Below the pieces are notes generated by a model, which was not told the DNA's origin, ran no database searches, and was given only the letters and a program-made list of their open reading frames with translations. Both the position numbers and the translations under genes were made by a program. A stretch of 64,000 nt of DNA from Blepharisma japonicum (taxonomy: Eukaryota; Ciliophora; Heterotrichea; Heterotrichida; Blepharismidae): NCBI GenBank assembly GCA_949751835.1, contig CATKHK010000013.1, positions 186,001 through 250,000 of the forward strand, in the 5' to 3' direction. Shown in pieces: positions 1 to 61,630 of the stretch (the first letter of the stretch is position 1; the number at the start of each line of letters is the position of its first letter).

Positions 1-345
1 AATAAGTGTGTCATTGTAAAGCAAAATTTTATAAGTTTCTGGCAAGTCTGGCTTTTTGTAGGTTTCTATCAGTTTGCTATATAATATGCAAGATAAGCTA
101 GATGTGTCAGTGTCTAGTTGAGAGCATAGAGTTAATAAATCTTGGGGTAATGGAGGTGGATCGATTCTTGGAAGCAAAATTCAACAGAGGAGGTAAACTA
201 CTGATTTAGAGAATTGAGCTTCAAACTCTTCAGGGAGGGAGTCATAGTCTTGAAAGACACATTCTATTACTTTTTCTAGAAAATCGAGTTTATTACCTTT
301 GTCTGAGCCTAGAACTTTTGATAATTTTTGATATGCTTTTTCCAT
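1..345 (-). CDS. Partial hypothetical protein, C-terminus beyond the window edge
   Basis: The minus strand is open from an ATG at 343-345 to the window edge, giving 115 residues without a TAA or TAG. A TGA at 181-183 is read as Trp, as elsewhere in this window. The visible part starts MEKAYQKLSKVLGSDKG and is followed by a proline patch (residues about 59-66) and a Ser/Leu-rich stretch. I recognise no domain. The first in-frame stop upstream is a TAA at 370-372, so ATG 345 is the only sensible start in an intact reading. The same frame looks protein-like further upstream but carries four TAA codons (see the next entry), so this could also be the tail of a larger, decayed gene. Confidence 0.5.
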
Positions 346-1452: not shown

Positions 1453-3711
1453 ATGTCTGAATCTCTCACACATATGTCTGGCTTCCATAAAAAGACCATC
1501 CAGGAGCGCCAAGAAATTATACGAGCTTTATTCCCACAGGTAAATGGATCTCTCTCTGACGGTGGCCTTGATTTAAAGACTGCAGACCTTATGATTGAAA
1601 ATTGTATAGGTCGCCTTTCTCTCCCTTTAGGACTAGGATTATACTTTCAAGTAAACAACAAAAATTATATTGTCCCTATGTGCACAGAAGAGCCTTCTAT
1701 AGTAGCTGCAGCTACGTCAGCTGCAAAATTAATCAAGCAGCACGGCGGGTTTAAATCAAATTCAACAGCTCCCATCATGACAGGCCAAATCCAGATTCTT
1801 GATATTGAGCCGACTGATGTTAAAGCAATCATTGAGTCACATAAGGAAAAACTTATAAAGAAAGCTAATCAAGAATATTGCCCAAGAATGGTTATTAGGG
1901 GTGGAGGAGTGATTGATATAGCATTTATTCAGCTTTCAGCTATAATGGGGATTGTTGAAATTTCTGTTAACGTCTGTGATGCGATGGGTGCAAACATTGT
2001 GAACTCATTATGTGAAAACTTAGCAAAAGACGTTGTAGCGCTAATCCCGAACTGTAGAATAGGTCTGAGAATTCTATCAAACTACTGCACACAAAGAAGA
2101 GTAATAACAGAGTTCAGAATCCCAATAGAAGACATGGCTTATAAAAGTTTACCAGGCTTAGACGTGTCAAAAAGAATGATAGAAGCTTTAGAGTTCGCAA
2201 GACTTAGCGTATATAGAGCTTGCACTCATAACAAAGGAATTTTAAATGGAATTGATGCAGTTGGCCTTGCTACAGGCCAAGATACTAGAGGAATAGAAGC
2301 AGCAGCCCATGCATGGTGTTGCAGAAATGGAAACTATCAGCCTCTGACCGAGTTTTGGACAGAAGGGAGCTTTTTTTATGGGAGGCTTGAAATCCCAATA
2401 GCAGTAGGCACACAAGGTGGAGCTTTAAAATCAAATTCTTTATATCAGACCACACAGTATATTCTTGGATTTCCTTCTGCCTTAGAACTAGCACAACTAA
2501 TGGCAAGTGTAGGGCTTGCTTGCAATTTTTCTAGTCTTAGAGCAATGGTGACTGAAGGAATACAGAGAGGACATATGGGCTTACATGCAAAAAATATTGC
2601 AATAGCTGCAGGAGTTCCTAGTGAGCTTGTAGATGAAGTAGTAGAATATATGAAACAGAGGAAGTCAATAACCCACCAAACAGCGCTTGAATATTTAGCA
2701 GCTCATCAGTTGCATACATTGGCTAAAAAACAAAAAGGACAACAAAACGCACTAAATACCTTTTACGTGGACCTCCCAGATGGAATCCCTCCTTTTAAGC
2801 TGAGTATTGCGTTTGATTGTCCTTCTTTGCATGGAATTCATATTGTTATTGATAATAAAGCTCAGCCATTTTCTACAGGGTTAGTCAAGGATATTCAGGA
2901 AAAGCTATTTGGGAGACACAAATATGAATGGATTATCAATTTTCTAGCAATGCTGGAATTTGTCAGATTTGAGCCAAAATTACCTCGAGCTAATTTAGAG
3001 CTTAGAAACAAAATGAAATTCCTATGTATTTGGCTTGATTTGCTTTCTATTAGTCTTCTTAACTGCTGGGATATTCATAAAGTAGGCCAAACTTTCTTAG
3101 CAATTACACAGAGAGATGATCATTCTTTAGGCCGCTTAGTAAAAGGAGCTGACTCATATATAGAATTCGCTGTTTACCTTGTCAGAGAGCTCTGGAATAT
3201 TTTTAACTACCACATTGATGGCTGGATCAGCCAAACTGTACAAAATTCCAATGTGCTAGCTGAAGAAATAAGAAGAGAAGCCAAAACTGTATTATTTTCA
3301 AATATTAGAGCTAAACAAGATGGCGACTTAAGCTTTGATGACTTTTTCGAATACAGAAAAAAACAAATGTGTGCGACCCTCATGTTTTTATGTGATTTAT
3401 TAGGAGAAACCAAAATTGATGTAGAGCTGATCAGAAAAATAACAGAAGTAGGAGATATATTGGAAACGATGAGCACGTCGATTAGAGACCTGAATAAGGT
3501 AAAAAAGAATGATATGACGAGGCCGAATTCGTATCTTTATTGACTAAAGTATTTCAAAGAGGAAGAAAAAACTGGAGAAGATAAGTACATTATGTATATT
3601 CAACAAAAAATCGACTCCAGGCAAGAGCATATGAGTAAATCACAACAGAAGATATTGAAAGTAGCTAGGAAATTTTTAAGTGCTTATTATAATCCAATTC
3701 CTAAGTTATAA
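1453..3711 (+). CDS. Class II HMG-CoA reductase with an extra C-terminal helical domain
   Basis: The 752-residue product reads through a TGA (Trp) at 3541-3543 and stops at TAA 3709-3711. Residues about 10-420 are a class II (bacterial-type) 3-hydroxy-3-methylglutaryl-CoA reductase, which makes or consumes mevalonate. The four catalytic residues of the family can be placed: Glu49 in ENCIG, Lys261 in NKGILNG, Asp277 in ATGQD and His378 in GHMGLHA. DAMGAN and GTQGG are also present. There is no membrane domain, unlike the usual eukaryotic class I enzyme. Residues about 430-752 are not part of the family. They are helical and contain DDHSLG (about 555), FFEYRKK (about 633) and RDLNKVKKND (about 678). 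The order and spacing resemble the metal-binding and Arg-sensor motifs of class I terpene synthases, but that reading is tentative. Likely acquired from bacteria (inference). Confidence 0.9.
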
Positions 3712-3720
3712 ATTGTCTTA

Positions 3721-4254
3721 GTAAAAGGAGCTGACTCATATATAGAATTCGCTGTTTACCTCGTCAGAGAGCTCTGGCTGGATCAGCCAACTGTACAAAA
3801 TTCCAATGTGCTAGCTGAAGAAATAAGAAGAGAAGCCAAAACTGTATTATTTTCAAATATTAGAGCTAAACAAGATGGCGACTTAAGCTTTGATGACTTT
3901 TTCGAATATAGAAAAAAACAAATATGCGCGACCCTCATGTTTTTATGTGATTTATTAGGAGAAACCAAAATTAATGTAGAGCTGATCAGAAAAATAACAG
4001 AAGTAGGAGATATATTGGAAACGATGAGCACGTCGATTAGAGACCTGAATAAGGTAAAAAGAATGATATGACGAGGCCGAATTCGTATCTTTATTGACTA
4101 AAGTATTTCAAAGAGGAAGAAAAAACTGGAGAAGATAAGTACATTATGTATATTCAACAAAAAATCGACTTCAGAAATAACAGAAGATATTGAAAGCAGC
4201 TAGGAAATTTTAAGTACTTATTATAACCCAATTTCTAAGTTATAAATTGTCTTA
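3721..4254 (+). pseudogene. Decayed tandem duplicate of the HMG-CoA reductase C-terminal domain
   Basis: This segment repeats 3139-3720, the last part of the preceding gene plus its 3' flank, directly after the original. Both start with GTAAAAGGAGCTGACTC, and CTTA at the junction is shared microhomology. The copy has lost about 27 bases near 3779, single bases near 3790 and in the A-run at 4057-4061, and a block near 4173. It therefore has no intact frame beyond 87 codons (3808-4071), and no start of its own. Nucleotide identity outside the deletions is very high, so the duplication looks recent. Confidence 0.85.
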
Positions 4255-5197: not shown

Positions 5198-5560
5198 TTA
5201 ATGAGTAATAGCTGGCCTGTTAGGATAAAGCATTACTCTGACCAATTTTCCAATAGCTTGTGGTGGAAGATTATGGGCAAACTTTGCTCTGACCACACCA
5301 TTAGTTCCGTGAGCAGCAATTACTTTTCCTTGGATGCTTCTATACTTGGTGAGCTTGTTCTTCTTGGTTTGTGCTTTATGTGCTCTGTAAACGTAAGCAG
5401 CTCTCTTTCCAATATACCATTTGGCGTCTTCTTTTGTCTTTACACCTTCAATTCTGAGGAGAGCTTGGTTTTCATTTTGGAGAGTAATTCCTCTTCTGAA
5501 TCCAAGAAATACAGCTCTGCTATAAAGACGATCAAGCTTCTTTACCATATTTATAGCCAT
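5198..5560 (-). CDS. RPL35A: Large ribosomal subunit protein eL33 (L35a)
   Basis: The 120-residue product matches the whole length of eL33/L35a, a eukaryotic and archaeal protein of the 60S subunit. Family signatures are easy to see: RLYSRAVFLGFRRG, QNENQALLRIEGVKTKEDAKWYIGKR (in two parts), GKVIAAHGTNGVVRAKF and the C-terminal RVMLYPNRP. ATG 5558-5560 gives MAINMVKKLDRLY; the second Met (MVKK) would also fit the family start. The stop is TAA. There are no introns and no TGA codons. It is divergent to the IQ-motif gene, with 164 bases between starts that should hold both promoters. Confidence 0.97.
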   Translation of the reverse strand: MAINMVKKLDRLYSRAVFLGFRRGITLQNENQALLRIEGVKTKEDAKWYIGKRAAYVYRAHKAQTKKNKLTKYRSIQGKVIAAHGTNGVVRAKFAHNLPPQAIGKLVRVMLYPNRPAITH

Positions 5561-15380: not shown

Positions 15381-16214
15381 ATGTATATAATAAAAACCAT
15401 TATGCTTTTATTTGAACTTTTATGTTTGCTGAGCATTGGAAGTGGAGAAAATTATATAAAAAGTGGCAATGACTGGGATGGACTCTGCAAGACTGGTCAC
15501 ATTCAGTCCCCAATAAACTTGAAATCTTCTGACGCAGATTTCATCGAAAAGGATTCAGCCATCTCATCCTCAATATCTCTAGAATTTCTCCTTGCAGCAT
15601 CTACTGGCTTATTTACAAATACGTCTTATCAACTACTTGGAAACTTCGGTGGCATTATACTTGACACAGGTAAAAATGATGAAATCAAGCTATTTTCATC
15701 AAAAATTGAGCTCCATTCTCCTTCAGAGCACTACATTCAAGATAAGCAATTTGACTTGGAAATTCAAATTTTCTTAAGCGATGGTGAAACAGATGAATTT
15801 TCTTATATTTTATCAGTCTTCTACCAAGAATCAAATCAAACAAGTAAATTTCTTAAAGACGCAATTGATTCAGAAGGCAAAACACTGAAAATTGATGTAG
15901 GAACCGCCTTTGGAGGAATTGAAAAAATTTACAATTTTTATTTTTACGAAGGCTCATATACAGTACCACCATGCACTGAAGATATTGGTTGGATTATCTG
16001 GCCTCAAATCCAAAAAATGGACAAACCTCAGCATGAATTTTTTTTAAGTCAATGGCAAAATAATACAGATTTCGCCGAAGGAAAAGGGAATAACCGTGAA
16101 ATTCAAGCACCTGGGAGTAGAATCATCATCTACTTTGATGGAATAGACAAATTATCATCATCCTCACTCTTTTTCCTGCTGCCTTCCAGTTTCTATTTCA
16201 TACTATATTTTTAA
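15381..16214 (+). CDS. Secreted alpha-carbonic-anhydrase-like protein lacking zinc ligands
   Basis: The 277-residue product has an N-terminal signal peptide (to about residue 22) and a C-terminal hydrophobic tail after a Ser run (SSSSLFFLLPSSFYF). That tail looks like a GPI-anchor signal. The body is an alpha-carbonic anhydrase fold: HIQSPINL (40-47), LHSPSEHYIQDKQFDLE (111-127) and SYTVPPCTEDIGWIIWP (about 193). Two of the three zinc-binding His are replaced: the FHFH position reads IELH (Glu110, His112) and the ELH position reads EIQ (Gln129). The protein therefore probably does not hydrate CO2 and may be a binding or structural relative, like carbonic anhydrase-related proteins. ATG 15381; stop TAA. 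Confidence 0.85.
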   Translation: MYIIKTIMLLFELLCLLSIGSGENYIKSGNDWDGLCKTGHIQSPINLKSSDADFIEKDSAISSSISLEFLLAASTGLFTNTSYQLLGNFGGIILDTGKNDEIKLFSSKIELHSPSEHYIQDKQFDLEIQIFLSDGETDEFSYILSVFYQESNQTSKFLKDAIDSEGKTLKIDVGTAFGGIEKIYNFYFYEGSYTVPPCTEDIGWIIWPQIQKMDKPQHEFFLSQWQNNTDFAEGKGNNREIQAPGSRIIIYFDGIDKLSSSSLFFLLPSSFYFILYF

Positions 16215-26034: not shown

Positions 26035-27063
26035 ATGGAAAACAGCTTTCAGCAGAATTACCAAACCGAAATCGAGATCTTATCAAGAGACTACTCCCCT
26101 CTCAGGACCTCCCACAAATGAAAATCCACAAAAGTCCCATCCGCCCAGTTAGACTCAGATGCGGTTTCACTATTAAACCAAAAAGAAAAATTCACCGTTC
26201 AAAGAGCAGGGTCTGAGACAACTGACATATATTCCTTATTCCAGTTCAATAAAAGAATGCAAATTAAAAGAAGCGAAAAACTGCTGAAGAGTGCATTTAG
26301 CTTTTGAAGGCTGGTTAACCCGTCGCAGCTTAGGTCAATTTCTAAGCCAGTTTATATCAAGGTGTTTGAGAATATATATAAAGATATTTTAGACCCAAAT
26401 AATACGGCTTATGCAAAGGAATATGCAATTAGTGATGCAGAAGTTGATTTTAATGGGAATTTTGGACTGACTTTTTGTGAATTTTATGACTCGTTTTTTG
26501 AATTTTTGGATACTATGACTAAAAGTGTGCTAATTGGGGAGTATTTGAGGTTTATTAAAGCTGTATATTCGAATATTCAAGAAGCGGCTTGGTTTACAGC
26601 ACTTAATTTGCATAATAAATTGCATTTAAGTGAAGCTCCAAGGCCGGTTTTTCAGAGCTGGATGGTGAAATCGTTTAGAGAGTCAAGGCAAACTATGGTA
26701 GAAAATACATCACAGTCGCCGCCTAAAGCAGCATCAGTTAAAATTGACTTGGATAATCTCCAAAGAAAAAACAGAAAGGTCATTAGAGAAGCAAACCAAG
26801 TCCAGCGGAAGATAGAAATTTTGAAAAGACAAATAAGATCTTCTCAAAGCAGAGTCAGGTCCAGGTCAACTCTTGATGGACGCTATAACTGGACAGCAGA
26901 TATAGACAAAAAAGATAGAGACTGGAGCACAATCAAGAAAGACAGCTATTTAGACAAATTCAACCCACTTTCGATCAAACCTCTAAGAGGTGGGCGGGAC
27001 TCGAATTTCCTTGAAGAAATCATTCAGCTGAGAAAAGGCAAAACAATAGAAATGTTAAATTAA
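26035..27063 (+). CDS. Hypothetical protein, Arg/Lys-rich C-terminus
   Basis: The 342-residue reading begins at ATG 26035 and uses TGA=Trp at two places (SHKWKST, FSFWRLV). It ends in TAA 27061-27063. The centre (about residues 100-205) is folded and contains a possible EF-hand-like region (SDAEVDFNGNFGLTFCEFYD), where the loop DVD-like acids are only partly present. The C-terminal half has a coiled coil (about 245-285) with SRVRSRS. Comparable proteins are frequent in ciliates but unnamed. It ends just 7 bases before the next ATG, one of the tightest spacings in this window. Confidence 0.65.
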
Positions 27064-31786: not shown

Positions 31787-32761
31787 TTACTTGCCTATGA
31801 AGAAGTTTGAAGGATGCTGTCTCATCCAGCCAAATGATCTCTTCAGCTTATAGAATCTGTTGAAGTACTTATATTTGCGATATCCATCAGATACGTTATA
31901 CAGTTCTATTCTCATACTGAGCATTGCAGTTCTTGCAATTTTGAATCTGAAATAGCAGAATGGGAACGAAATAACTATCATCATAAAGAATTTCAGCCAA
32001 GCAATCCTATACTCCAAACTGTCCTTTGCAGCCATAAAGTGGCAAAATTCTGCAACGTCATAAGCCATTTGTGGGGTGGAAGCTGGGGTGCCGTCATCAT
32101 ATTCCATCATACCGTCGTATAGAGGTCTTGGCATTCCAATAATCATATGTTTAAAATAAGGGTTAAAATGTTTCCCTTCAGGCACGTCAATTCCAAATGG
32201 TGGCTCATAATGGTAGCCAGTCATGATATTGTATACATAAGCTGGGCCGCCTGGCTTGGAAATCCCAATTCTGCTTAAATCGCTTGGGAAGAGGCCTCCA
32301 TTTGCACTTCTAGCGTGGTCAGGGGAAATGTAAGGTGAAAACATGTAATCTGAAATTTTCTTTGGCCTGTCCATCCACTCATGTCTGAACCACCCTTTGA
32401 TGTACCAATGCCCTGGGTTCACAGGAGCCAGTTCTTTGACGATGTCAGTTAGTTCTCCTTGTCTAAAAGCTTTTTTGATCAAGAAATCATACTTGTTTTG
32501 CGTCATTGCGTGGCAGGTGTTGCAAGAACGAGTGAAGACTTTGAAGCCACGTCGCAGCACCAAGGCACTGTATGAACCAAAATAGCGCTCGTGAGGCCAG
32601 TGGAATTTGTTAATCATGGCTTGTTCTTCGTAACCTTTGATACCTTGTCTCTGGCCTATATCATCACGATAAATAAAACATTCAGGATTCTTCTTGTTTG
32701 CCCAGAGCAAGTAGACTCCAGATGCCCATAAGAGAGTGGGAGTTGATAATAAGGATACCAT
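31787..32761 (-). CDS. CYT1: Cytochrome c1, complex III haem subunit
   Basis: A 324-residue nuclear-encoded cytochrome c1. It has the haem-binding CNTCH (in FTRSCNTCHAMTQNKY), the SANGGLFPSDLS motif downstream, and the MPRPLYDGMMEYDDGTPAST region that supplies the axial Met. One transmembrane segment near the C-terminus (WLKFFMMIVISFPFCYF) anchors it in the inner mitochondrial membrane, with the haem domain in the intermembrane space. It passes electrons from the Rieske protein to cytochrome c. The N-terminal hydrophobic stretch may serve for targeting. The C-terminus after the membrane segment is longer and more basic than in yeast or mammals. ATG 32759-32761, stop TAA. Confidence 0.95.
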   Translation of the reverse strand: MVSLLSTPTLLWASGVYLLWANKKNPECFIYRDDIGQRQGIKGYEEQAMINKFHWPHERYFGSYSALVLRRGFKVFTRSCNTCHAMTQNKYDFLIKKAFRQGELTDIVKELAPVNPGHWYIKGWFRHEWMDRPKKISDYMFSPYISPDHARSANGGLFPSDLSRIGISKPGGPAYVYNIMTGYHYEPPFGIDVPEGKHFNPYFKHMIIGMPRPLYDGMMEYDDGTPASTPQMAYDVAEFCHFMAAKDSLEYRIAWLKFFMMIVISFPFCYFRFKIARTAMLSMRIELYNVSDGYRKYKYFNRFYKLKRSFGWMRQHPSNFFIGK

Positions 32762-35706: not shown

Positions 35707-36452
35707 TTAATTATTATCAACTATAGCGATAACTCTTGCACTCAACTCTTGGGCACGGTCAATTAAAAGAGGCACAGCTATCATTGTAAACCCACTCTCT
35801 GGAAGATCTTCCAAGTACAGATTTTCGATCTGATATTTATCATTCCCAAGAATTACATTATGAACTGCAAAATCTGTTGATTTTCCAGGATCTAGCGATA
35901 GCGTATGATTCCAACTGCATTGATGTTCCTTTGACTGCACAAAAACTCAGCTGCTTCTTTTGAAAATCCAGGGAATCTCATAACACCTCCAGAATATAAT
36001 GGGTGCTTTGCTGAATCGTCATGATTTTTATACTCTTCTGGATTACCGAATTTTGCTCCCCAACCAGTTCTCATCAAAACAATTGACCCGTCAGAGATTC
36101 TTCCATGCTTATTTTCCCATTCAATTAGGTCAGCGACAGCTAATTCGTAATCATTTTCCTTGCGACATTTTTCTTTTACGTCTATCAGGACTCCTTTTGA
36201 AACAAGTTCTTTTGGCTGAAGATCAGAAATTGTTTTTTTACCCTCAAAGAAAAGAGCTGGGGAGTCAATATGCGTACCAGTTCCACTTGCCAGGGTGTAA
36301 ATTTCATTTGAAAAGCTACTACTATCATAAGTGTTTAATTGATAGCGGACCATTGGAGGATTCATAGGCCACTGGGGAATTTGTTCATTGATTAGATGGG
36401 TGCAATCTATAACTCGTGCACGTGAAATAGATTCCACTAATGCTTTTAACAT
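35707..36452 (-). pseudogene. Broken copy of the cyclase-family gene
   Basis: This is a tandem duplicate of the intact gene at 37056-37796, with roughly nine out of ten bases identical. It has ATG 36450-36452 and the same layout. Near 35908 one base is missing relative to the other copy, so after NINAVGI the frame shifts and stops after 186 residues; the rest (LSLDPGKSTDFAVHN and onward) continues in another frame to TAA 35707-35712. One zinc-site residue is also lost: SPALFF instead of SPAHFF. Both changes indicate that this copy is not functional. Confidence 0.85.
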
Positions 36453-37055: not shown

Positions 37056-37796
37056 TTAATCTACTATAGCAATAACTCTTGCAACCAACTCAGGGGCATG
37101 GTCAATTAAAAGAGGCAAAGCTATCATTGTAAACCCACTCTCTGGAAGATCTTCCAAGTACAGATTTTCGATCTGATACTTATCATTCCCAAGAATTACA
37201 TTATGAACTGCAAAATCAGTCGATTTTCCAGGGTCTAACGAAAGCGTATCAATTCCAATCGCATTGATGTTCCTTTGACTGCATAAAAATTCAGCTGCTT
37301 CTTTTGAAAATCCAGGGAATCTCATAACCCCTCCAGAATAGTATGGATGCTTTGCTGAATCGTCATGATTTTTATACTCTTCTGGATTACCGAATTTTGC
37401 TCCCCAACCAGTTCTCATCAAAACAATTGACCCGTCAGAGATTCTTCCATGCTTATTTTCCCATTCAATTAAGTCAGCGACAGCTAATTCGTAATCATTA
37501 TCCTCGCGACATTTTTCTTTTACGTCTATCAGGACCCCTTTTGAAACAAGTTCTTTTGGCTGAAGATCAGAAATTGTTTTTTTACCCTCAAAGAAATGGG
37601 CTGGGGAATCAATATGCGTGCCAGTTCCGCTTGCCAAGGTGTAAATTTCATTTGAAAAGCCACTTCTTTCATAAGTGTTAAATGGGCAGCGGACCATTGA
37701 AGGATTCCGAGGCCACAGGGGAATTTGTTCATTGATTAGATGGGTGCACTCTACAACTCGTGAATGCGAAATAGATTCCACTAATGCTTCAGACAT
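37056..37796 (-). CDS. Cyclase-family metal-dependent hydrolase (kynurenine-formamidase-like)
   Basis: A 246-residue protein, ATG 37794-37796, stop TAA. It is of the cyclase family (PF04199): the metal site GTGTHIDSPAHFFEGKKTI keeps the HxGTHxDxPxHF pattern in the form TGTHIDSPAHF. VLMRTGWGAKFGN and NINAIGIDTLSLDPGKS follow, with the HNVILGN motif near the C-terminus. Members hydrolyse N-formylkynurenine, isatin or related amides, or are polyketide cyclases. The exact substrate cannot be read from sequence. It is cytosolic by appearance, without a signal peptide. This is the only intact copy of a local tandem set. Such enzymes are more common in bacteria, so transfer is possible. Confidence 0.9.
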   Translation of the reverse strand: MSEALVESISHSRVVECTHLINEQIPLWPRNPSMVRCPFNTYERSGFSNEIYTLASGTGTHIDSPAHFFEGKKTISDLQPKELVSKGVLIDVKEKCREDNDYELAVADLIEWENKHGRISDGSIVLMRTGWGAKFGNPEEYKNHDDSAKHPYYSGGVMRFPGFSKEAAEFLCSQRNINAIGIDTLSLDPGKSTDFAVHNVILGNDKYQIENLYLEDLPESGFTMIALPLLIDHAPELVARVIAIVD

Positions 37797-49641: not shown

Positions 49642-50739
49642 TTAGTTTATAAACTTGAAAAATGAATTTTTTCTTCTCCTCGATTTTTGGTTATTTGGGT
49701 CTTCTTTTTCATTTTGTGGAGGAAGAGGAGGTGCCTCATTGAAAAAATACCCAATAAAAATATCTTGACAAATATCAGCCTTAACAGATATGCCATCATT
49801 TCAATCTTCAGATGCATGCTTGAGATTAAAGTTATCAGAATTGCTCGGCTGGAAGGTTGGGATAATTTCTTTTCTAAACAATTTGTCTCATTCCACATCA
49901 GCCAGCCATGGGTGATTTTTCACTTCTTCATACCCTCCATTGCCAAGCCTGTTCTGAGCTTTTCTTTGTATTAGATGATTCGCAAAATTTAACGCTTCTT
50001 GAGACCATGTTGAAGGAATTTCACTTCTTTTAAGTTGGACTTGCTTTGACAATATTTGATCTCTGATTTCTTTTCTATCTTTTCCAAGATAAGGTCTAAC
50101 CCCAGCTATCATTTCATAGAGTATAACTCCTACTGCATATCAATCAGCCACATATGAGTGGCTTTGTCTACACATTACTTCTGGAGCCATATACCCAGGG
50201 GTTCCTGAAGTATCCCCTGAGTTATCTTCCATCCAGATTCTTGCTATCCCAAAGTCAGTAATATGCAAGTATCCTAAGCTGTCGAAAACCAAATTTTCTG
50301 GTTTGATATCCCTATGCAAAATTTTATTTGAGTGCAAGTATTCTAGACCAGTGACTAAACAGGCAACTATGAATTTTGCTTGTTCTTCATTAAAAGCTTG
50401 CTTTGTTAATTGATATCTCAAATCTCCGCCGGCTTTGAGATCCATGGTGAGATAAAGGAAATCTCGGTCTTGAAAAGCGTGATGCATGTTTACAATAAAA
50501 GGGTGCTTTAGAATACTGAGCAGTCTTTTCTCGTTCATTACGGAGTGAACTGATCTCTTTGCAAGGACTCTTGATTTCAGCATCTCCTTTAAAGCATATG
50601 ATTGTTTGGTCTTCTTGTGTGTGACTTTTCATACTTTGCTGAAGCCTCCTTTACCAATAGGATTGTGGAATTCAAATTGGGTCGAGTCGATGCTTATTGT
50701 AGGGTCGAAGTTGTCAATATGTAGGCTGCAGTTTCCCAT
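49642..50739 (-). CDS. YANK/STK32-like AGC kinase, array member 1
   Basis: The 365-residue product uses TGA=Trp at several places (KVWKVTH, VADWYAVG, DVEWDKL, SEDWNDG). It starts MGNC, a myristoylation/acylation signal, at ATG 50737-50739. Kinase domain about 22-290: Gly-loop GKGGFSKV (29-36), Lys51 in YALKEM, HRD (142-144), DFG (162-164) and APE (185-187). GGDLRYQL and the tail DVEWDKLFRKEIIPTFQPSN closely resemble STK32/YANK (MNWDAVFKKALMPGF). After this come about 60 residues of Pro/Asn/Arg-rich tail. All catalytic residues are present. YANK substrates are poorly known. Stop TAA 49642-49644. Confidence 0.88.
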
Positions 50740-51183
50740 ATTAGAGCGAATACAAATTTAATAAAAGAAAATTAGAATGACCGCAAACTTCTTATTTTTG
50801 TAAAATTTAATGAGAGTTATTTATAGATTGATCGAGAAATTCATATAGAAGTGATTGTAGAAATAATAGTTCTACCATTATAATGCATGGTTGAGCTAAA
50901 AAAAATGATAATATATAAAATTAAATTTTTAATTAGGAATTTTATGATTTATAGAGCTGCACTACTGTTTTAAATTAGAAATAATTAAATAAGCATCACT
51001 AGGTAGTTATAAGGTATAGAAAATTTGTTTGCAAGATATTGAATAACACCAAAAAGTATGAAAGATTATAACTCTAACTTTTAAATATAGGTAGCAGGCT
51101 GCAGTTAGAAAGAATTGTTAATTTTCTTATATATTGAATTATTTCTCCAATTAGACCAATTAATCATTATTAAAGTCATAATC
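50740..51183. other. Intergenic between array members 1 and 2
   Basis: 444 bases, AT-rich, containing the promoter of member 1 and the 3' end of member 2. No further feature seen. Confidence 0.6.
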
Positions 51184-52287
51184 TTAAGATTGCTGTTTTT
51201 TATTCATAGTCTGGCGCATATATTTTTTCCCTTCACTTTCGCACTTAAGATAATTTGGATCTACCTTATTATTTTGTGGAGTTTCGTTATAGAAGTAGCC
51301 TAGAAATATTTCTTGGCTGAAATCACTATTTGTGATAACTTCATCTTTTCAATCCTCATTTACATATTTTTGATTGAAATTTTTTGCTTTTGGTGGCTTA
51401 AAACTCGGCTTAATTTCTTTTCTAAACAATTTCTCCCATTCCACATTTCTTACCCATGGGTGATCTTTCACATCATTAATTCCATTAAACCCAAGTCTAT
51501 TTTGAGGTCTTCTCTGTATTAATTGATTTACAAAATCCACACATTCCTCTGACCACTCCCCTAACAAATTGTTTGCTTTTAACTGGACTTGTCTATCTAA
51601 TACCTGTTCTCGTATTTTATTTCTGTTTTCTCCCAAATAAGGTCTTAACCCAGTAATAATTTCATATAATATAACTCCCAATGCATACCAATCTACAGCA
51701 TACGTATGATTTTGTTTACAAAGAACTTCAGGAGCCATATACCCAGGAGTTCCTGATACTTCATGTGAATTGTCTTCGATCCAAGCCCTGGCTATACCGA
51801 AATCTGTTATATGCATATATCCTTCTCCATCAAATATTAAATTTTCAGGCTTTAAATCTCTATGAATAATTTTATTTGAATGTAAATATTCTAATGCGAG
51901 AATGATGCATGAAGTCAAAAATTTGGTATTTTCCTCAGTAAATGTATGTTTCTGGAAATGATACCGTAAATCCCCTCCTGTTTTCAAGTCTATAGTAAGG
52001 TAAAGATAGTCGCGATCTTGAAATGCATGATGCATATTAACGATAAAAGGGTGTTTTAAAATGCTGAGAAGCCTTTTTTCATTGATTACAGAGTGTACGT
52101 GCCTTTTTGCGATGACTCTTGATTTCAAAATTTCTTTTAAAGCGTAACTTTCCTTTGTGTTTTTGTGAGTAACTTTCCAAACTCTGCTAAAACCTCCTCT
52201 ACCAATTAGATAATGGAACTCAAATTGGTGAGAATTTAAGTAGACAGTCGGATCGTAATCGTCAGATCTCATGCTGCAGTTTCCCAT
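51184..52287 (-). CDS. YANK/STK32-like AGC kinase, array member 2
   Basis: 367 residues; I chose the ATG at 52285-52287, which gives MGNCSMRSDD as in its relatives, over an ATG 30 bases upstream. TGA=Trp occurs at NEDWKDE. Gly-loop GRGGFSRV, YALKEI lysine, HRDLKPEN, DFGIAR and GTPGYMAPE are all intact. The end RNVEWEKLFRKEIKPSFKPP is the family tail. It is closest to member 7 in the activation segment ([20 protein letters not shown]). The C-terminus is basic and lacks Ser-rich repeats. Stop TAA 51184-51186. Confidence 0.9.
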
Positions 52288-53043
52288 TTTGAGTGTTGAT
52301 GTAATTTTTATTGGCATATAGAATAGAGCCAGGTGAAATCAAAAGTCAGTTGTGCTATTGCCATGAGATTAAATCATTAGAAAGAAGCACTTGAGCAAGT
52401 TAGATATATTAAGCTTTATTAATTTTTAAGCATAAATAAACTTAAAACAATCGAGTAAACTCTTTATGGGTGCTAATATATGCAATAACATTGAAGGGAA
52501 TTGTGATAATTATATTTAAGGAATATATAAATTAAAGAATCTAATTATTATAATATCCAATAAATTTTTGCAATTTACCTTATTTTCACAACTGGATTAA
52601 AGTTAAAAAATAGCTATTTATGCAAAAAGTATCATAAGGAGCTCAATTGTGATAAGTGTATTGGGGACATTATTTTTCAAAGCCTAAAGAGAATGAGAAA
52701 TCTTAATACATAATAATTATCTACAATTATTTATAAAAAAATTTCAATTTAGAGAGTTTTAAAATTTAATTGATAGAAAAAGTTTATATTAAGAAAAGCG
52801 GAATAATTATAAATGATAAGTCTCAGTAATAATTATAGGCATTATGCTAATAAATTTATTTGGTGAATGAATTAACCACTTTTTCAACAATTATTTCATT
52901 TTCTTTTTAAACTAAAATGGCTGCTAGATGAATTTTAACATATGGAAATAAAATGAATATTGTTTATTTTTCAAAAAATAACTTTTTGGAAATGATCATA
53001 ACTTTGAAAATATATTTACATTAAAGATTTAAGTTTAAATTTT
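52288..53043. other. Intergenic; start of the duplicated module
   Basis: 756 bases without a gene. From about 52515 on, the sequence is repeated at 59080-59729 (for example the tracts around AATATATAAATTAAAGAAT and TTGCAATTTACCTTATTTTC), so 52515 marks the left end of the duplicated kinase module. Confidence 0.7.
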
Positions 53044-54183
53044 TTATGAACGTACAGAGCTTTTCCCTCTTGGCTTTTGATTACTCGAACCTCCATTTTG
53101 AGCATGAGGCTGGCCAAAAGAGCTTTTTTTCCTAATAAGTGTGTTCTTGTTATTATCTACATTCTGAAAGTCAGGCATCTCCACATAGAAGTAGCCTGCA
53201 AACATCTCTTGTTTAAAATCGCATTTTGGTTTAATCCCATCGCTCCAGTCTTCATTTACATACGCTCTATTAAAATTGCTTCCCCTCTTGGGTGCAAATC
53301 TAGGATTAACTTTTTTTTTCAGCACTTTATCCCATTCTACATCTTTGAGCCATGAGTGATTCTTTATTTCTTCAATCCCTCTAAACCCTAGTCTATTTTC
53401 AGGGTTGGTTTGGATTAATTGATTTACAAAATCTTCACATGTTTTAGACCAAGAAGTGGATAGAGTGTCTACATTTAATTGCACTTGACTTTCTAAGATC
53501 TTTTCTTTGACTTCTTTCAAGTTTTTTCCTGGGAAAGGTCTGGATCCAGTGATGATTTCATGCAAGATAACACCTACTGCAAACCAATCCGCAGGATAAG
53601 AATGATTTTGCTGACAAAGAACTTCTGGAGCCATGTATCCAGGAGTTCCCGATACATCATTTGAGTTCTCTTGGGACCATGTTTTTGCTTCCCCGAAATC
53701 TGATAAGTATACATACCCTTTTTCATCAAAAAGCAAATTTTCTGGCTTCAAGTCCCTATGGATGATTTGTTTGGAATGAACATATTCCAAGCCAATGACA
53801 ACGCATGAAATGATGAATTTGGCTTCTTCCTCAACAAATTTATGTTTTAGAAGTTGGTACCGCAAGTCGCCTCCATGCTTGAAGTCCATAGTAAGATAAA
53901 GATGACTATGGCTTTGGAAGGCATGGTGCATATTAGTGATAAATGGATGACGTAGAGCACTTAGCATTTCTTTTTCATTAAGAGCAGAATTGACGTGTCT
54001 TTGTGCCACTACTCTTGATTTTAGGATTTCCTTCAAAGCGTAAACTTGCTTCGAATTTTTATGAGTGACTTTTCATACTTTGCTAAAAGAGCTCCTACCA
54101 ATCGGATAATGGAAATCAAATTGGTTAGGATTCAAGCAAATTGTTGTGTCGCAATCGTCAGTTTTCAGAATGCAGTTTCCCAT
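53044..54183 (-). CDS. YANK/STK32-like AGC kinase, array member 3
   Basis: 379 residues, ATG 54181-54183 (MGNCILKTDDCDTT), stop TAA 53044-53046. TGA=Trp at KVWKVTH. Gly-loop is GRSSFSKV (the usual second Gly is Ser). HRDLKPEN, DFGEAK, GTPGYMAPE and [20 protein letters not shown] follow. The DFGEAK form and the C-terminal tail (KSSFGQPHAQNGGSSNQKPR) are shared with member 5, its duplicate at 59730-60869. VEWDKVLKKKVNPRFAP is the YANK tail. All catalytic residues are intact. Confidence 0.9.
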
Positions 54184-54961
54184 GTCAGGTCGGATGTTTA
54201 TGTTTATAAATGTGGCAATAAATCTCCAGGTATATGGCTAATCGATTCAAAATAAATTTTAACTTAAAAATTAGTTAAAGTGGCAATTAAGCTTAAAAAT
54301 ATAAAACAAAGCTTTATTTGCATTTAATATCCAATTTATAGCCTCTAAGCTAGCTTCTTCACAAAATCTAGTTTCAGGTAACTCGATCAAAACATTTATT
54401 ATTGGTTTTGAAACAGATTGTTTGGAAAATATGGGTTTTCGAAATTATGTTAGGAAATATTTTCAGTTTAAGTTAAATAAAACAATTATTTGCATTTCCT
54501 AGTATTAAGAGCATCTTCTTCTTTTATATAATTCTAGTGGCCAGATTTTTTATTATGACCTTTTAATTTTTCCACAGTGCTTCAAGCTTATAATATTTAA
54601 TAAATATAACGTATTTGAAAATATATACTCTAAAGAAAAGCACTTTATTTGCAATTTTATCATTAACTTATAAATTTATTTTCATAGACTAAAAAAATTA
54701 TATCCAATTTTTATTACATTTTACATATTTTAAGCTAAGTTTAATTGCATAAGATATTTTATCATAATAAAAACTATAGAAATAACTAATAAGATAAATT
54801 GAAAATTTTATCTTTTAAAATTAATCACTTAATTTATCATTAAAATGTCTACTAAAAAGCTCTAAATGTAAAAATAAATGGTGACGTAGACTTATTTAGA
54901 AAATTTCCAGAAATGCTTTGAACTCGAGACAAATTTTTTACATTTAAATACATTAATCTAG
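54184..54961. other. Intergenic between array members 3 and 4
   Basis: 778 bases of AT-rich sequence, repeated with many changes at 60870-61630. No gene or RNA recognised. Confidence 0.65.
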
Positions 54962-56107
54962 TTATGAAGATCGAAATTCGCTTTTTCTTCGAGCATGAAT
55001 TTTTTGATTATTTGTATCTCCTGGATGATTTTGTGGCAAGCAAGAAGAATTTTTTCTTTTTGCATTTGTGTTTGTGTTAACGGATTCAATATTTTGAGGA
55101 AACTCTATATAAAAGTAGCCTAAAAATATATCTTGATTAAAATTACATTTTGGTGTAATTCCATCTTTCCAATCTTCATTTACATAGCGGGAATTAAAAT
55201 TTTTTCTTTTCATTGGCTTGAATCTTGGGATAATTTCTTTTCTATACAATCTATCCCATTCTATATACTTCAGTCATGGATGGTTTTTTATTTCGCCAAT
55301 TCCCTTGAACCCAAGTCTGTTTTGTGGGTTTACTTGAATTAATTTATTTACAAAATCTTCACATTCCTTTGACCAAGAAGTCGATAAGTTCTCTACATTT
55401 AATTGCACTTGGCTTTCTAAAAATTTATCTCTAACTTCATTTAAAGTTTTGCCTGAATATGGTCTTGAGCCAGTAATAATTTCATATAAAATTACACCTA
55501 CCGCAAATCAGTCAGCGGTATATGAGTAATCCTGCTGGAAGGCTACTTCAGGTGCCATATAGCCAGGGGTTCCTGACATATCATGAGGCATCTCTTTATC
55601 CCATATTTTGGCTTCCCCAAAATCTGCTAAGTACACATATCCTTCCTCATCAAAAAGCAAATTTTCTGGTTTAACATCCCTATGAATTACCCTATGAGAA
55701 TGAATATATTCTAGCACAAGAGCAATGCATGAAACCAAAAATTTGGCTTCCTCTTCTACAAATTTATTTTTTATCATTTGGTAGCGTAAATCACCACCTG
55801 ATTTTCAGTCCATTGTTAGGAAAAGGTAATTTTCGTTTTGAAAAGCATGATGCATATTTATCATAAAAGGATGCCTTAACATACTTAGAACGTTTTTTTC
55901 GTTAAGAGCAGAATTAGCATGTCTTTGTGCTACTACCCTTGATTTAAGGGTTTCTTTCAAAGCATATACTTGCTTTGTTGTTTTATCGGTTACTTTTCAC
56001 ACCTTGCTGAAAGAACCTTTCCCAATGGGATAATGGAACTCAAATTGATTAGGATTTATACAAATTGTCGGGTCATAGTCGCTAGTTTTCAAACTGCAGT
56101 TTCCCAT
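54962..56107 (-). CDS. YANK/STK32-like AGC kinase, array member 4
   Basis: 381 residues, ATG 56105-56107 ([14 protein letters not shown]), stop TAA 54962-54964. TGA=Trp appears at [23 protein letters not shown] and NHPWLKY. Catalytic set intact: [13 protein letters not shown] lysine, [23 protein letters not shown]. The tail [20 protein letters not shown] matches the family, and the end is basic (RRKSEFRSS). It is the duplicate partner of member 6 (61631-62776), about nine residues in ten being identical. Confidence 0.9.
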
Positions 56108-56616
56108 TTCAAAGCTTATCAGATATTTATTAATGTGGTTCGAATGACCTCATATATGGCTGAGGGCAGAATTAAAAGATATGTTTTAAAAATTATTGAA
56201 GTTCAAAAATCAGAAATTAATGAGAATTAAATGCAGCTTTTAGAGTTAAATATATTTCTGAATTTCCCAAAAAATATTTTGTTAGATATTCTATTGATAA
56301 TTATTAGAGTTCGGAGCTTTTTTTCTTTTATTTGAAAGGGGTTCTGATAAATTAGCTTTCGAAAATATTTTTCTGATTTTTTGTTTAAAATTAAAGAAAT
56401 GATTTCTTTGATTTCTTTTTTGGTAGAACAGTTAAATTTTTTATTTAAATGAATTTGTTAGAAATCTTATTCAGATTTCTTGATTTTTTTTAAAACCTCT
56501 ATCCCATACTGATCAACCTATGTGGCCAAATAGAACGACAAGCTGAAGAGTTTAGGCTAAATAAAGGCTATTAAAAGACAATTTTTATCTGATTTCTAAA
56601 AGCGTTAACTTATAAT
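56108..56616. other. Intergenic, conserved in both modules
   Basis: The gap matches 62777-63286 closely. A stretch at about 56505-56590 (CCCATACTGATCAACCTATG to AAGGCTATTAAAAGACAATT) is almost identical to 63172-63257. This could be simply recent duplication or a conserved control element or small RNA. No protein frame is kept in both copies. Confidence 0.6.
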
Positions 56617-57285
56617 TTACTTATATTATTTACAAAGATTATATTTTCCTCTTTAGTGCAAATCATCATGATTTGACTTTATTTTTATCTTGAGATGTTT
56701 TATTATAAATATAACCTTTAAATGCCTCTTGTTTGCAGTCGCTTGTGGCAACAATTCCTTGGAAAAATATTTATTATTGAAATTATTAGTTTTGGTGATT
56801 TAAAGATCTGTGTGGATTTGCATTCAATAAATTAAAATTTTTATACATTTTCTGTTCAAATTTATATATTTTACTTTAAAATATTTTTTCTTAAAAATGC
56901 AATAATCTGACTATCTATTTACTAAAAAACCATAAAAACTGAAGTAATTTCTTTTCAGAGCAAACTTTCTCATTCTATATTCTTCAACCATTGATGATTT
57001 TTTACTTCAATTACTCCTTTAAAGCCAAGTCTGTTTTGAGGTTCTCTTTGGATCAGTTTATTTACAAAGTCAGCGCATTCCTTAGACCAAATCCCCTGAT
57101 AAATTTTCATGGTTTAGCTAGATTTATCTATCAAGATTTGGTCTTTTTATAAGGTCCATTTTTTTCAACGTAAGATCTTAACTCAGTGATGATTTCATAT
57201 AAAATCACATCTATAGAAACCAATCTTCAGTATAAGTATGATTCTGCTGACAAAGAATCTTAGGAGTAGCGTAGTCTGGTGTACC
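56617..57285 (-). pseudogene. Decayed, truncated YANK-like kinase (partner of member 7)
   Basis: The segment matches the C-terminal half of member 7 (63287-63840): the stop region, the stretch for the DYNQEAFKGYLYNE part, [14 protein letters not shown], and the activation loop near 57240-57285. About 130 unrelated bases interrupt it near 56805-56935, and many small changes break the frame. Homology ends abruptly at GGTGTACCG (57277-57285), where a TIR-ended segment starts. The N-terminal half of the kinase is absent. Confidence 0.85.
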
Positions 57286-59063
57286 GTTGTCTGACCAAGC
57301 AGGATTAGTACTTGGGATCCCACCATTATTACCCCCACCCCTGCCTTTTAAATTATGGGTTAATAATTAATATTAACTGCATTAGATTTAAGATAAGTTT
57401 ATTGTGCCATAAGTATACTCTTTGAGCATATTTAGTTTATATCTGATAATTATCACTTTATTAATGAATCATAATTTTTTAATTTATGTTTGATTAATTT
57501 ATGAAGTTAGCTTATGCAAGAAGTTTATTATAAGGAAAAATGGGATTCATTTATTATTTATCTATTTATGACTTCAAATATAGTGAAAGTGACCTAGATC
57601 TTTATATAATTGAGAGGCTATTGAAATATGAAAATTTTATATAGATATAATTTAGAATTGCTTACTATAAATGGAAAGTCCTAATCGATTAAAATTGATT
57701 AAACATAATGTTAATTTTAAAAAATACTTTTTAAACTGATGAGATAACTGCGCACGCAATAAAACTGCACTGGAGAATAAGTTTTGGTGCTCTAGGAAGG
57801 CTTAGAAGAAGCTCTACGTTAGAAAAGCATTGGGGGACGAGAAATTTGCTCTGTGAAAAAGAATTTGGCATTTGGGTTCTTTTAGTTTTCTAGGCAAAAA
57901 TTAAAATTAAAATGGCAGGTAAAATCAATTTGATTTAACCGTTTTAATTTGGCCTGCGAAACTATTTCATAAAACTAAAAAATATCAAAACACTTTCTAC
58001 TCGACAATTTTCACATCAAGGCTATTTCTGCGGGGTTTGACAATCTATATAAGTATACAGTTCACTTGAGCATTTTAAAAATAAATACAGTATTAATTAT
58101 AAAGACACACATCAAAATCATTGAAATATTAAAGCTTGGATACTCTAAATTCGTGTTGAGCTATACCTAAACTGCTTTATATTACTATATCATTAATATC
58201 TGTAGTAATAGAGATAGGCAATTAATATATTCGAATAAGGTTTATTATGTATTCATGTTGCTATTAAAAATGTTAGCGCATAAAGAAGTCTATATTATTT
58301 TAATTTAGTGTTATATGCATTTGCATTAAATAAAATTCATATTTAATACTTAATTAAAAAAAATTATCTAAGCTCTCAAAATGACTCTTTTAAAGGTAAA
58401 GATTTAATATGTTTTGCAATAAGACTTAATCTTTTAATAATAGTCATTCAGGCTAGAAAAATTTGCTAAATGATGATTTAATATTAATAATGAAAATGAT
58501 AACCTTAATTATTGAATTAAAATAAGCATCTTTTTTGACTGATAATAATGAGAGAATTGCAATTACTATTTTACTTTTGTATTTTATATAAATATGCTTA
58601 AATAAAGTATTTCTAAAGAAATGTTTCAGCTTACTGAAATATAATAATATTAATATTTAGAGGAATAAAAAATTTTTTAGGCATGATTGGATGAAGACTT
58701 TAAAAGATATAGATATTTCATTCATTAAAGCCTTTAAAGTTAGCTTAAATTGATTAAAAGCGTTTATAAACACTCTGCTAGAAAAAATTACTTAATATTT
58801 TTCATCCTTAACTTAAAAAGAACTTGCGCCAAAAATAATAATTATTATACTTTCTTCTCACTTTAATCAAAATATGAAAAACTAGTTGGTCAAGTATGAG
58901 ATCCCCCACCACTATTTAAATAGAAATATATTATAAATTAAATATTAAAATTTTTTATAATTGATTGGGAAGGGGATGAGAGTAGGCTGTGGGGTTTCTA
59001 TTTGTGTAAAAGGGTGGGGTGGGGCTGGTGTTTTTCTGTGTCTTGTTCCTGCTTGACCAGATA
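57286..59063. mobile_element. 1.8-kb insertion with imperfect terminal inverted repeats
   Basis: The left end TTGTCTGACCAAGCAGGA (57286-57303) matches the reverse complement of the right end, TTATCTGGTCAAGCAGGA (59063-59046), at 15 of 18 positions. Both ends continue into C-rich/G-rich stretches (57315-57341 ACCCCCACCCC; 59007-59036 GGGTGGGGTGGGG) that are also roughly inverted. It lies exactly between the two kinase modules and interrupts the decayed kinase. No transposase frame is visible, so it would be non-autonomous, or two nearby short elements. In Blepharisma such TIR elements are a source of eliminated germline sequences (IESs). The target-site duplication is not clear. Confidence 0.6.
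58885..59063. mobile_element. Small MITE-like element within the right part of the insertion
   Basis: A second, inner end at 58885-58898 (GTTGGTCAAGTATGA) resembles the inverted right end (TCTGGTCAAGCAGGA), sharing TGGTCAAG. Both are followed by C-rich sequence (58901-58910 ATCCCCCACC). This outlines a 179-bp unit rich in G on the plus strand (58968-59036), with four or more G-runs that could form a quadruplex. It may be a separate miniature element of the same family as the left end. Confidence 0.45.
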
Positions 59064-59729
59064 ACGATATTTTAAAAATATATAAATTAAAGAATTTAAT
59101 AATTATATTATCCAATAAATTTTCGCAATTTACCTTATTTTCACAACTTGTAACTATTTATGCAAAAAGTATCATAAAGGAGCTCAGTTTTGGCAAGGAT
59201 ATAGGTCATATTAATTTTAAGAGCCTAAATGGCTCTAACAGCTCTAAAGTTTAATTTATGGAAGAATTATATACTGTTATTTTTTAAAAATTATCAATTT
59301 AAAGGATTTAAATGTATTGATAGAAAAAGTTTTAAAAGCCAAATAATTAAAAATGATAAGTTTCTATAAATTATTTTGCTATCTAGAAGTATAATTCAAT
59401 TTTTGTTAAATCATTAATTGTGCAAAAGATCATTGTATAATAATTAATTGTATTAAAGATGTTAATGGAGCCTCCTCCATAATTTTAAAAATTTTGTCAT
59501 CTTTTATGATTTGAGTTAGTACTAAATTATAGACACAATACTAATAATTTTATTTGATGAATAAATTAATCACTTTTTCAACAAAGATTTCATTTTCTCT
59601 TTAAACTAAAATGGTTTCCAATTAAACTTTTACATAAAAAGAATACTGTTTATTTTTTAAAAAATAACTTTGTTAAAACGATTATAATTTTAGATAATGC
59701 ATTTGCATTAGAGATTAAGTTTAAATTTT
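59064..59729. other. Intergenic, duplicated 3' flank of the kinase module
   Basis: 666 bases that correspond to 52515-53043, with insertions and changes. No gene seen. Confidence 0.65.
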
Positions 59730-60869
59730 CTATGCATGCACAGGGATTCTCCCTCTTGGCTTTTGATTATTCAAAGCTCCATTTTGAGCATGAGGCTGGC
59801 CAATAGAGCTTTTTTTACTGATAAGTAAGTTTCGGCTATTATCTACATTTTGAAATTGAGGCAACTCCACATAGAAGTAGCCTGCAAACATCTCTTGTTT
59901 AAAATTGAATTTTGGTTTAATTCCATCATTCCAGTCTTTATTTACATACTTTCTATTGAAATTGCATCCATTCTTGGGTACAAATCTAGGATTAACTTCT
60001 TTTTTAAGCAGTTTATCCCATTCTACATCTTTGAGCCATGGGTGATTTTTTATTTCTTCAACCCCTTTAAACCCAAGTCTATTTTCAGGGTTGGTTTGGA
60101 TTAATTGATTTACAAAATCTTCACATGATTTAGACCAAGAAGCGGATATAGTATCTACATTTAATTGCACTTGGCTTTCTAAGGTCTTTTCTTTTATTTC
60201 TTTCAAGTTTTTTCCTGGGAAAGGTCTAGATCCAGTAATGATTTCATGTAAGATAACACCTACTGCAAACCAATCCGCAGGATAAGAATGGTTTTGTTGG
60301 CAAAGAACTTCTGGAGCCATATATCCAGGGGTTCCGGATACATCATTCGAGTTCTCTTGGGCCCATATTTTTGCTTCTCCAAAATCTGATAAGTATACAT
60401 ACCCTTTTTCATCAAAAAGCAAATTTTCTGGTTTCAAGTCTCTATGGATGACTTGCTTAGAATGGATATATTCTAAACTAATGACTATGCATGAAATGAT
60501 GAATTTGGCTTCTTCCTCAACAAATTTATGTTTTAGGAGTTGGTACCGTAAATCGCCTCCATTTTTAAAGTCCATAGTAAGATAAAGATGGCTATGGCTT
60601 TGGAAAGCATGGTGCATATTAGTAATAAACGGATGACGTAGAATTCTTAGAATTTCTTTTTCATTAAGAGCTGAACTAACGTGCCTTTTTGCTACTACTC
60701 TTGATTTTAGGATCTCCTTCAAAGCATAAACTTGCTTCGAATTTTTATGAGTAACTTTTCATACCTTACTAAATGAGCTCCTACCAATAGGATAATGGAA
60801 ATCGAATTGGTGAGGACTCAAACAAATCGTAGTATCACAGTCATCAGTTTTCAGTATACAGTTTCCCAT
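59730..60869 (-). CDS. YANK/STK32-like AGC kinase, array member 5
   Basis: 379 residues, ATG 60867-60869 (MGNCILKTDDCDTT), stop TAG 59730-59732. Duplicate of member 3, with the same length and about nine residues in ten identical. Gly-loop GRSSFSKV, HRDLKPEN, DFGEAK and MAPE are kept. TGA=Trp at KVWKVTH. Differences cluster in the C-terminal tail (KSSIGQPHAQNGALNNQKPR). The tail VEWDKLLKKEVNPRFVPKNG is family-typical. Both copies look functional, so selection keeps both or the duplication is young. Confidence 0.9.
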
Positions 60870-61630
60870 GACAGATAGAATTTTATAATTATAAATGTAG
60901 GCAATGAATCTTCAGTAAATGGCTAATCCATATACAGTAAATTTCAACTTAAAGCTATTTAAAGCGATTGATAAACTAAATCATATAAAATAAAGTTATA
61001 TTTGCTTTTAATATATAATTTATAGCTAGGTTCCTCACAAAATTTAGTTTCAAGTAAGTTATCAAAACATTTATATCATTTTTGAAACAGATTATTTGAA
61101 GAAAATGAGCTTTCAAAAATATTTAAGGATATATTTTCAGTTTAAGTTAAACAAAATATTTATTTATGTTTCCTAGTGTAGATGACGCTCTCCTTTTATA
61201 TATCTCTATTAGTCAGTATTTTTATTATGACATTTTAATTTTTAACAGCGCTCTAAGCTCATAACAATTACTAAATAAGGAGTATTTGAAAATATATACT
61301 CAAAAGAAAGCATTTTATTACAATTCTATCATTAACTTATAATTTTATTTTATAGATTAAAAAATTATATCAAATTTTTATTGCATTTTACATATTTTAA
61401 GCTAAGTTTACTAACAAAGAATTTTTATTATCACAATTAGTTTATAAACAACGATTAAGATATGTTGGAAGTTTATCTTTTAAGATTAATCTCTTAATTT
61501 ATCAGTAAAAATGTCTAAGAATGGTTTTAAATATAAAATAAATAGGGTGACGTAAACATAATTTAGACTCCTTACGAAGTTTTTCTTAACTATAAAAACA
61601 AATTTTTAACATTTAAATATATTAATCTAG
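60870..61630. other. Intergenic between array members 5 and 6
   Basis: 761 bases of AT-rich sequence, homologous to 54184-54961. No gene or RNA recognised. Confidence 0.65.

Follow-up and report, generated by a model that had tools for sequence, protein, structure and literature searches.

A class II HMG-CoA reductase with an orphan C-terminal extension in the ciliate Blepharisma japonicum

The stretch of Blepharisma japonicum DNA analysed here, a window of 64,000 nucleotides, carries at 1453-3711 on its forward strand a gene that joins a complete class II HMG-CoA reductase (HMGR) to a C-terminal extension with no significant family match. The reading that we favour, with a probability of roughly 0.55, is that this is the sole detected HMGR of the organism, a class II enzyme that makes mevalonate, and that the extension is a non-catalytic appendage of about 330 residues that most likely controls or places the reductase. 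The finding is one of unusual architecture, in which the class II HMGR of a ciliate bears an orphan appendage, and does not establish a new enzyme; no paper on such an HMGR architecture was found among the matches listed from the open-licence literature.

With Trp assigned to TGA, the frame at 1453-3711 stays open over 752 codons; under translation table 11 it would stop at 3541-3543, after 696 amino acids. That TGA (forward strand), the only one in frame, becomes Trp697, and the assignment is sound for the window because TGA and TGG interchange in the neighbouring kinase paralogues: in an alignment of six of these, five of the seven TGA-bearing columns hold only TGA or TGG, a sixth has four further codons beside TGA and TGG, and the seventh comes from a single row. 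UGA has likewise been reported to encode Trp in Blepharisma stoltei, whose draft macronuclear genome is given as 41 Mbp and AT-rich in the portion of that paper that was retrieved (PMC9942806). With TGA as Trp, the initial annotation was right to place some 330 extra residues in the same open frame as the reductase. The gene lies in ordinary company, with ribosomal protein L35Ae at 5198-5560 (reverse strand), a eukaryotic-type carbonic anhydrase at 15381-16214 (forward strand) and cytochrome c1 at 31787-32761 (reverse strand), and these neighbours suggest that the contig is nuclear DNA of the ciliate and not bacterial contamination.

Residues 1-420 (1453-2712, forward strand) make up the class II HMGR domain, as seen from family profiles, PDB matches and an alignment of seven sequences. 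Pfam HMG-CoA_red (PF00368) matches residues 16-379 at 4.2e-89 (299.6 bits, cut-off 27) and TIGR00532 matches residues 6-379 at 305.6 bits against a cut-off of 259.95, along positions 22-395 of the 395 in its profile; the family match spans residues 6-379 and likeness to relatives runs to about residue 415. The best PDB sequence matches of the reductase are class II HMGRs, the best at 2.9e-83. When the ciliate protein is aligned with six prokaryotic class II relatives, Glu79 and Glu80 of the EEPS motif (1687-1692), Lys261 in THNKG (2233-2235), Asp277 (2281-2283) and His374 in QRGHM of the C-terminal flap (2572-2574; all on the forward strand) fall in invariant columns, and we take their catalytic roles to be those of the corresponding residues in the HMGR of Pseudomonas mevalonii. 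Both profiles being over cut-off and these columns invariant, the complete bacterial-type class II HMGR proposed in the initial annotation, catalytic residues included, is confirmed. The ciliate protein has the whole reductase domain of the family with the catalytic Glu, Lys, Asp and His and is 38-47% identical to the prokaryotic members retrieved, but it differs from them in a gene that reads TGA as Trp, in its very long branch and in its 331 extra C-terminal residues.

Only one HMGR-family match was found in the organism's own genome (45.2 Mb in 224 contigs), which also holds one HMG-CoA synthase match, GHMP-kinase N domains at four places, two strong and two weaker polyprenyl-synthase matches and one match to the SQS/PSY family. 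Although the family name of TIGR00532 says 'degradative', the ciliate enzyme most likely makes mevalonate, a direction that we infer because HMG-CoA synthase, GHMP kinases and prenyl-diphosphate synthases share the genome; its reductase activity is likewise predicted from the sequence. In the mechanism that we propose, this class II HMGR of prokaryotic type would supply mevalonate for the cell's own isoprenoids, and a ciliate so equipped, with a class II HMGR as the only one detected, would be expected to differ in its statin sensitivity and in the control of its mevalonate supply.

In class II HMGRs the active site is closed by a C-terminal helical flap that bears the catalytic His, and in the predicted ciliate protein the appendage would directly follow this mobile flap and its His374. 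The extension would be a natural place for control because it adjoins the very element that closes the active site. Its role is most likely control or placement, either as an oligomer contact or by binding an effector or a partner that affects flap closure. A parallel may be seen in class I HMGRs, which carry an unrelated membrane and regulatory part.

The extension itself, residues 422-752 (2716-3708, forward strand), finds no significant match in Pfam, NCBIfam or PHROGs, and nothing among PDB sequences at E <= 10. Its only matches within the organism's own genome are itself and a tandem duplicate, now decayed, of the gene's 3' end. A search of viral_contigs with the extension gave no close relative and one of genome_contigs with the whole protein no relative, in collections that hold no eukaryotic genomes and with single-protein queries that reach close relatives only. 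The tandem copy, at 3717-4254 on the forward strand, was delimited by direct repeats (D1-D5) and by frame-by-frame translation; it is 92-99% identical in blocks to its source at about 3135-3716 (~582 bp) and, with its deletions and broken frames, resembles a fragment of a young pseudogene. By codon position the GC content of the extension is 0.42/0.29/0.31 against 0.47/0.29/0.25 in the neighbouring kinesin gene, a base composition compatible with coding sequence. The predicted extension may not be translated as annotated. AlphaFold run without relatives gave two models, with pLDDT 34.7 and 39.1, of which the latter, the model of the extension, shows short strands followed by a run of helices; the 'helical' character of the extension is thus a feature of low-confidence models only. 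With either of these poor models Foldseek returned no match at E <= 0.001. Several other candidate identities were set aside. As a membrane anchor the extension is borderline, its highest 19-residue Kyte-Doolittle mean being 1.59, and an EF-hand is represented by one weak EF-hand_7 match at the Arg635 stretch (E 0.07) in which loop position 1 is basic. The Pfam and PHROGs matches to DUF87 (0.26 and 0.035), UNC45-central (0.063), Holin_BhlA (2.6 and 0.4) and phrog_25399 (0.13) we regard as noise.

The initial annotation had seen a terpene-synthase-like domain here. It gave the motif positions correctly, with DD at 555, FFEYR at 631 (hence Arg635) and RDL at 678, and the Arg635-to-RD678 spacing is indeed 43 residues, as compared to 46 in bacterial enzymes. 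Our reference set consisted of 14 bacterial terpene synthases at less than 60% identity, mostly myxobacterial and reached via Myxococcota loci; its profile matches 143 distinct solved sequences at E <= 0.001 (best 9.5e-93), and the 60 listed are terpene synthases or designed variants. All 14 share, without exception, the sensor Arg, the NSE motif N-D-x-x-S-x-x-x-E and the R of the RY pair, whose Y is nearly invariant. Arg635 in FFEYRKK (3355-3357, forward strand) is the putative diphosphate-sensor Arg of the extension, in the stretch that also gives the weak EF-hand_7 match. At the putative place of the NSE motif the extension reads RDLNKVKKN (3484-3510, forward strand), with N, S and E absent and at best the Arg and one Asp kept. 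Where a DDxxD/E motif would lie, some 80-90 residues before the sensor Arg, there is DDHS, 80 residues upstream and lacking the last acidic residue, and no RY pair is recognisable in the aligned tail of the extension, in an alignment with only 11-18% identity. A loose pattern, DD-(73..88)-R-(38..46)-[RN]D, which was chosen post hoc, is present in 2.9% of 5000 shuffled versions of the extension. PF19086, the family of the bacterial class I terpene synthases, has no match in the organism's own genome, and the search can find the family because 62 of the 145 genomes of a second set matched (with 0 of 14 among control genomes). The extension resembles these enzymes in its length and has a similar spacing from the putative sensor Arg to the NSE region, but it differs in lacking NSE, DDxxD and RY and in scores that are at chance or weakly above it.

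Those scores came from several kinds of comparison. Against the terpene-synthase HMM with all filters off the extension scores -1.8 bits, a value reached by 32 of the 200 shuffles and by 12 of the 50 other window pieces (hmmsearch reported 108 of the shuffles and 29 of the window pieces, and the unreported ones were counted as lower); squalene/phytoene, polyprenyl and mevalonate kinase HMMs gave no reported match to it. With hhalign, the probability against terpene synthase is 0.36% and 0.26%, within the range of its shuffles. The mean global pairwise score to the 14 terpene synthases has z 2.87, as high a score being reached by 3 of 1000 full and 46 of 1000 block shuffles (an earlier run with 60 shuffles gave z 3.12, with 1 of 60 as high), and in the same test squalene/phytoene synthases give z -0.09 and polyprenyl synthases -1.11. 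The extension ranks second of 24 window segments in this pairwise comparison, behind an unrelated window gene at z 3.42. That gene is a 342-aa ORF at 26035-27063 (forward strand) with no Pfam match at E <= 0.001, which is highest of the 24 segments in the pairwise test and has a PSSM score of only 0.68; its pairwise score is most likely due to chance.

A terpene-synthase PSSM gave z 1.75 in a first run, a score reached in 16 of 300 full shuffles and in 38 of 300 block shuffles. In a second run the extension had z 1.94 on the terpene-synthase profile and 2.00 on the squalene/phytoene-synthase profile; it led the 24 segments on both, with the next decoys, at 1.66 and 1.95 respectively, barely behind. 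The method fails on families known to share the fold: on the terpene-synthase profile a sequence of the squalene/phytoene-synthase family reaches z 0.99 and the polyprenyl synthases of the ciliate itself reach -0.50 and -1.20, and the terpene- and squalene-family positives are members of their own profiles and so not independent. Because known same-fold families are not linked by it, the PSSM neither proves nor excludes a distant relation, and the lean towards terpene and squalene/phytoene synthase profiles is a weak one that does not amount to detection. Among 54 Foldseek matches to the extension model (pLDDT 39) a single selinadiene synthase chain stands at rank 8, with E 4.0 and TM 0.20, and no terpene synthase is among the 50 matches listed for the full-length model. 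With NSE, DDxxD and RY missing and the profile comparisons at chance or weakly above it, we do not retain the identification of the extension as a terpene synthase.

Additions at this end of a class II HMGR have a precedent of another kind. A search of genome_contigs with an alignment of the reductase part yielded at least 588 relatives, and 21 of the best 80 of these have more than 250 residues beyond QxGHM. Both GHMP kinase domains were matched in 20 of the 21 (L016, L017, L018, L025, L026, L030, L032, L033, L038, L041, L047, L048, L055, L056, L057, L059, L063, L066, L067 and L070); the other, L035, holds a masked stretch and was omitted from the 20-member kinase alignment. The mevalonate kinase equivalog is over cut-off in both of the two fused loci checked, and the count of fused loci is to be read as at least 20 of 80, since some loci stop at contig edges (L024, L051). 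The fused loci are titled Gammaproteobacteria, Rhodospirillaceae, Calditrichota, Melioribacteraceae, Wenzhouxiangella, Dyella and Rhodanobacter, among others. Mevalonate kinase is the next pathway enzyme after HMGR, and no paper on natural class II HMGR-mevalonate kinase fusions was found among the literature matches listed. With at least 20 of the 80 loci carrying GHMP kinase domains there, class II HMGRs tolerate natural fusion at this point. The tail of the ciliate protein occupies this junction too and is of similar length (364 residues against 345-361 in the 20 fused loci, counted to the end of the protein from 20 residues past the start of GIQxGHM), but the partner in the prokaryotic fusions is mevalonate kinase and the ciliate extension has no likeness to it. 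Pfam finds no GHMP kinase domain in the extension and the best blastp E is 2.7; hhalign gives 0.29-0.36% against the kinase, and the PSSM gives z -0.31, with 162 of 300 shuffles as high.

Whether the reductase came from such a fused gene is a separate question. In a tree of 50 rows, the ciliate and 17 others (16 of them kinase-fused, together with L024, which ends early at a contig edge) lie on one side of a branch with bootstrap 95 and SH-aLRT 81, and the end branch of the ciliate is ten times the median. These rows were drawn from 81 reductases, from the window and genome_contigs; six plasmid-collection sequences were omitted, L080 and L083 were left out for their long branches and L035 for its masked stretch, and the other rows were thinned by even locus number and a hand-picked list after a first tree had been seen. 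AU tests do not reject placement of the ciliate with Chloroflexota (p 0.384), with Myxococcota (0.116) or with the remaining rows (0.069), nor a grouping that unites the fused rows with Myxococcota and leaves the ciliate out (0.169), and in a quick tree of 87 rows the ciliate reductase lies elsewhere, beside a long branch. Because of the long branch, the unrejected groupings, the post-hoc thinning and the differing quick tree, we make no claim that the ciliate gene descends from a bacterial fusion. As to the bacterial origin suggested by the initial annotation, membership of class II is clear, and the AU tests admit more than one donor group.

How, then, should the extension be explained? An active terpene synthase or prenyltransferase, which would link mevalonate supply to a terpene step in one polypeptide, has in its favour only the spacing of three short motifs and is very unlikely because the metal-binding motifs are missing: RDLNKVKKN stands in place of NSE, DDHS is short of the last acidic residue, no RY is recognisable, and there is neither a Pfam or NCBIfam match nor a PF19086 match in the own genome. 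Another candidate is a degenerate domain of the isoprenoid-synthase fold that has lost its catalysis and would sense prenyl diphosphates, with feedback on the attached reductase. Its length and its order of strands then helices, as given by a low-confidence model, would suit the fold, as would the spacing of 43 against the bacterial 46, and the pairwise z of 2.87 (3 of 1000 full shuffles; second of 24 segments), the PSSM scores of 1.94 and 2.00 (top of 24) and the selinadiene synthase chain at rank 8 of 54 count in its favour. Several results stand against it: the pairwise score is equalled or passed in 46 of 1000 block shuffles, an unrelated window gene exceeds it at 3.42, and the same test gives -0.09 and -1.11 with squalene/phytoene and polyprenyl synthases; the PSSM score is reached by full shuffles (16 of 300) and by block shuffles (38 of 300), with decoys at 1.66 and 1.95; the HMM score of -1.8 bits is reached by shuffles and by other window pieces, and squalene/phytoene and polyprenyl HMMs have no reported match; the hhalign values of 0.36% and 0.26% lie within the shuffles; the selinadiene synthase match has E 4.0 and TM 0.20, to a model with pLDDT 39, and no terpene synthase is among the 50 full-length matches listed; and the Arg635 stretch also gives a poor EF-hand match. 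We consider such a sensor unlikely. The full scheme is an end-product sensor derived from an isoprenoid enzyme and independent of sterol-sensing domains: the sole HMGR would carry an isoprenoid-synthase-like domain, catalytically dead, whose binding of prenyl diphosphates would act back on the flap. This is improbable as a whole; if the fold of the extension proved isoprenoid-like it would be a new way of building feedback.

The 50-row tree raises the thought that the gene came from a bacterial HMGR-mevalonate kinase fusion, the extension being a kinase decayed beyond recognition. The shared junction, the 364 residues against 345-361 and the 50-row tree that joins the ciliate to 16 kinase-fused rows and L024 (95/81) are consistent with this, but there is no kinase signal by PSSM (z -0.31), hhalign (0.29-0.36%) or blastp (E 2.7), the AU tests leave four other groupings unrejected and the 87-row quick tree differs, and we regard this history as improbable too. 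It is also improbable that the extension is a recent addition with no selected role, arisen de novo or by read-through into what had been downstream DNA. Such an origin would agree with the lack of a relative in the own genome, genome_contigs and viral_contigs (at close-relative reach, the latter two being collections without eukaryotic genomes) and with an unstable 3' end that has undergone a tandem duplication of ~582 bp; against it are the absence of TAA and TAG from 331 codons of AT-rich DNA and GC values by codon position near those of the neighbouring kinesin gene. The explanation we prefer is the non-catalytic appendage that would control or place the reductase, against which stands the weak lean towards terpene and squalene/phytoene synthase profiles.

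Gene copies are also found elsewhere in the window. On the reverse strand, seven related protein kinase genes stand in tandem at 49642-63994, and the window end cuts the last of them; the six genes with a start hold MGNC near it, the one copy checked is Pkinase, and two stretches of the array recur at a spacing of ~6.7 kb with 87-91% identity. Two putative cyclase gene copies, at 35892-36452 and 37056-37796 (reverse strand), are 96% identical over 300 nt; PF04199 was tested on the second, and the ORF of the first is the shorter, at 186 against 246 aa.
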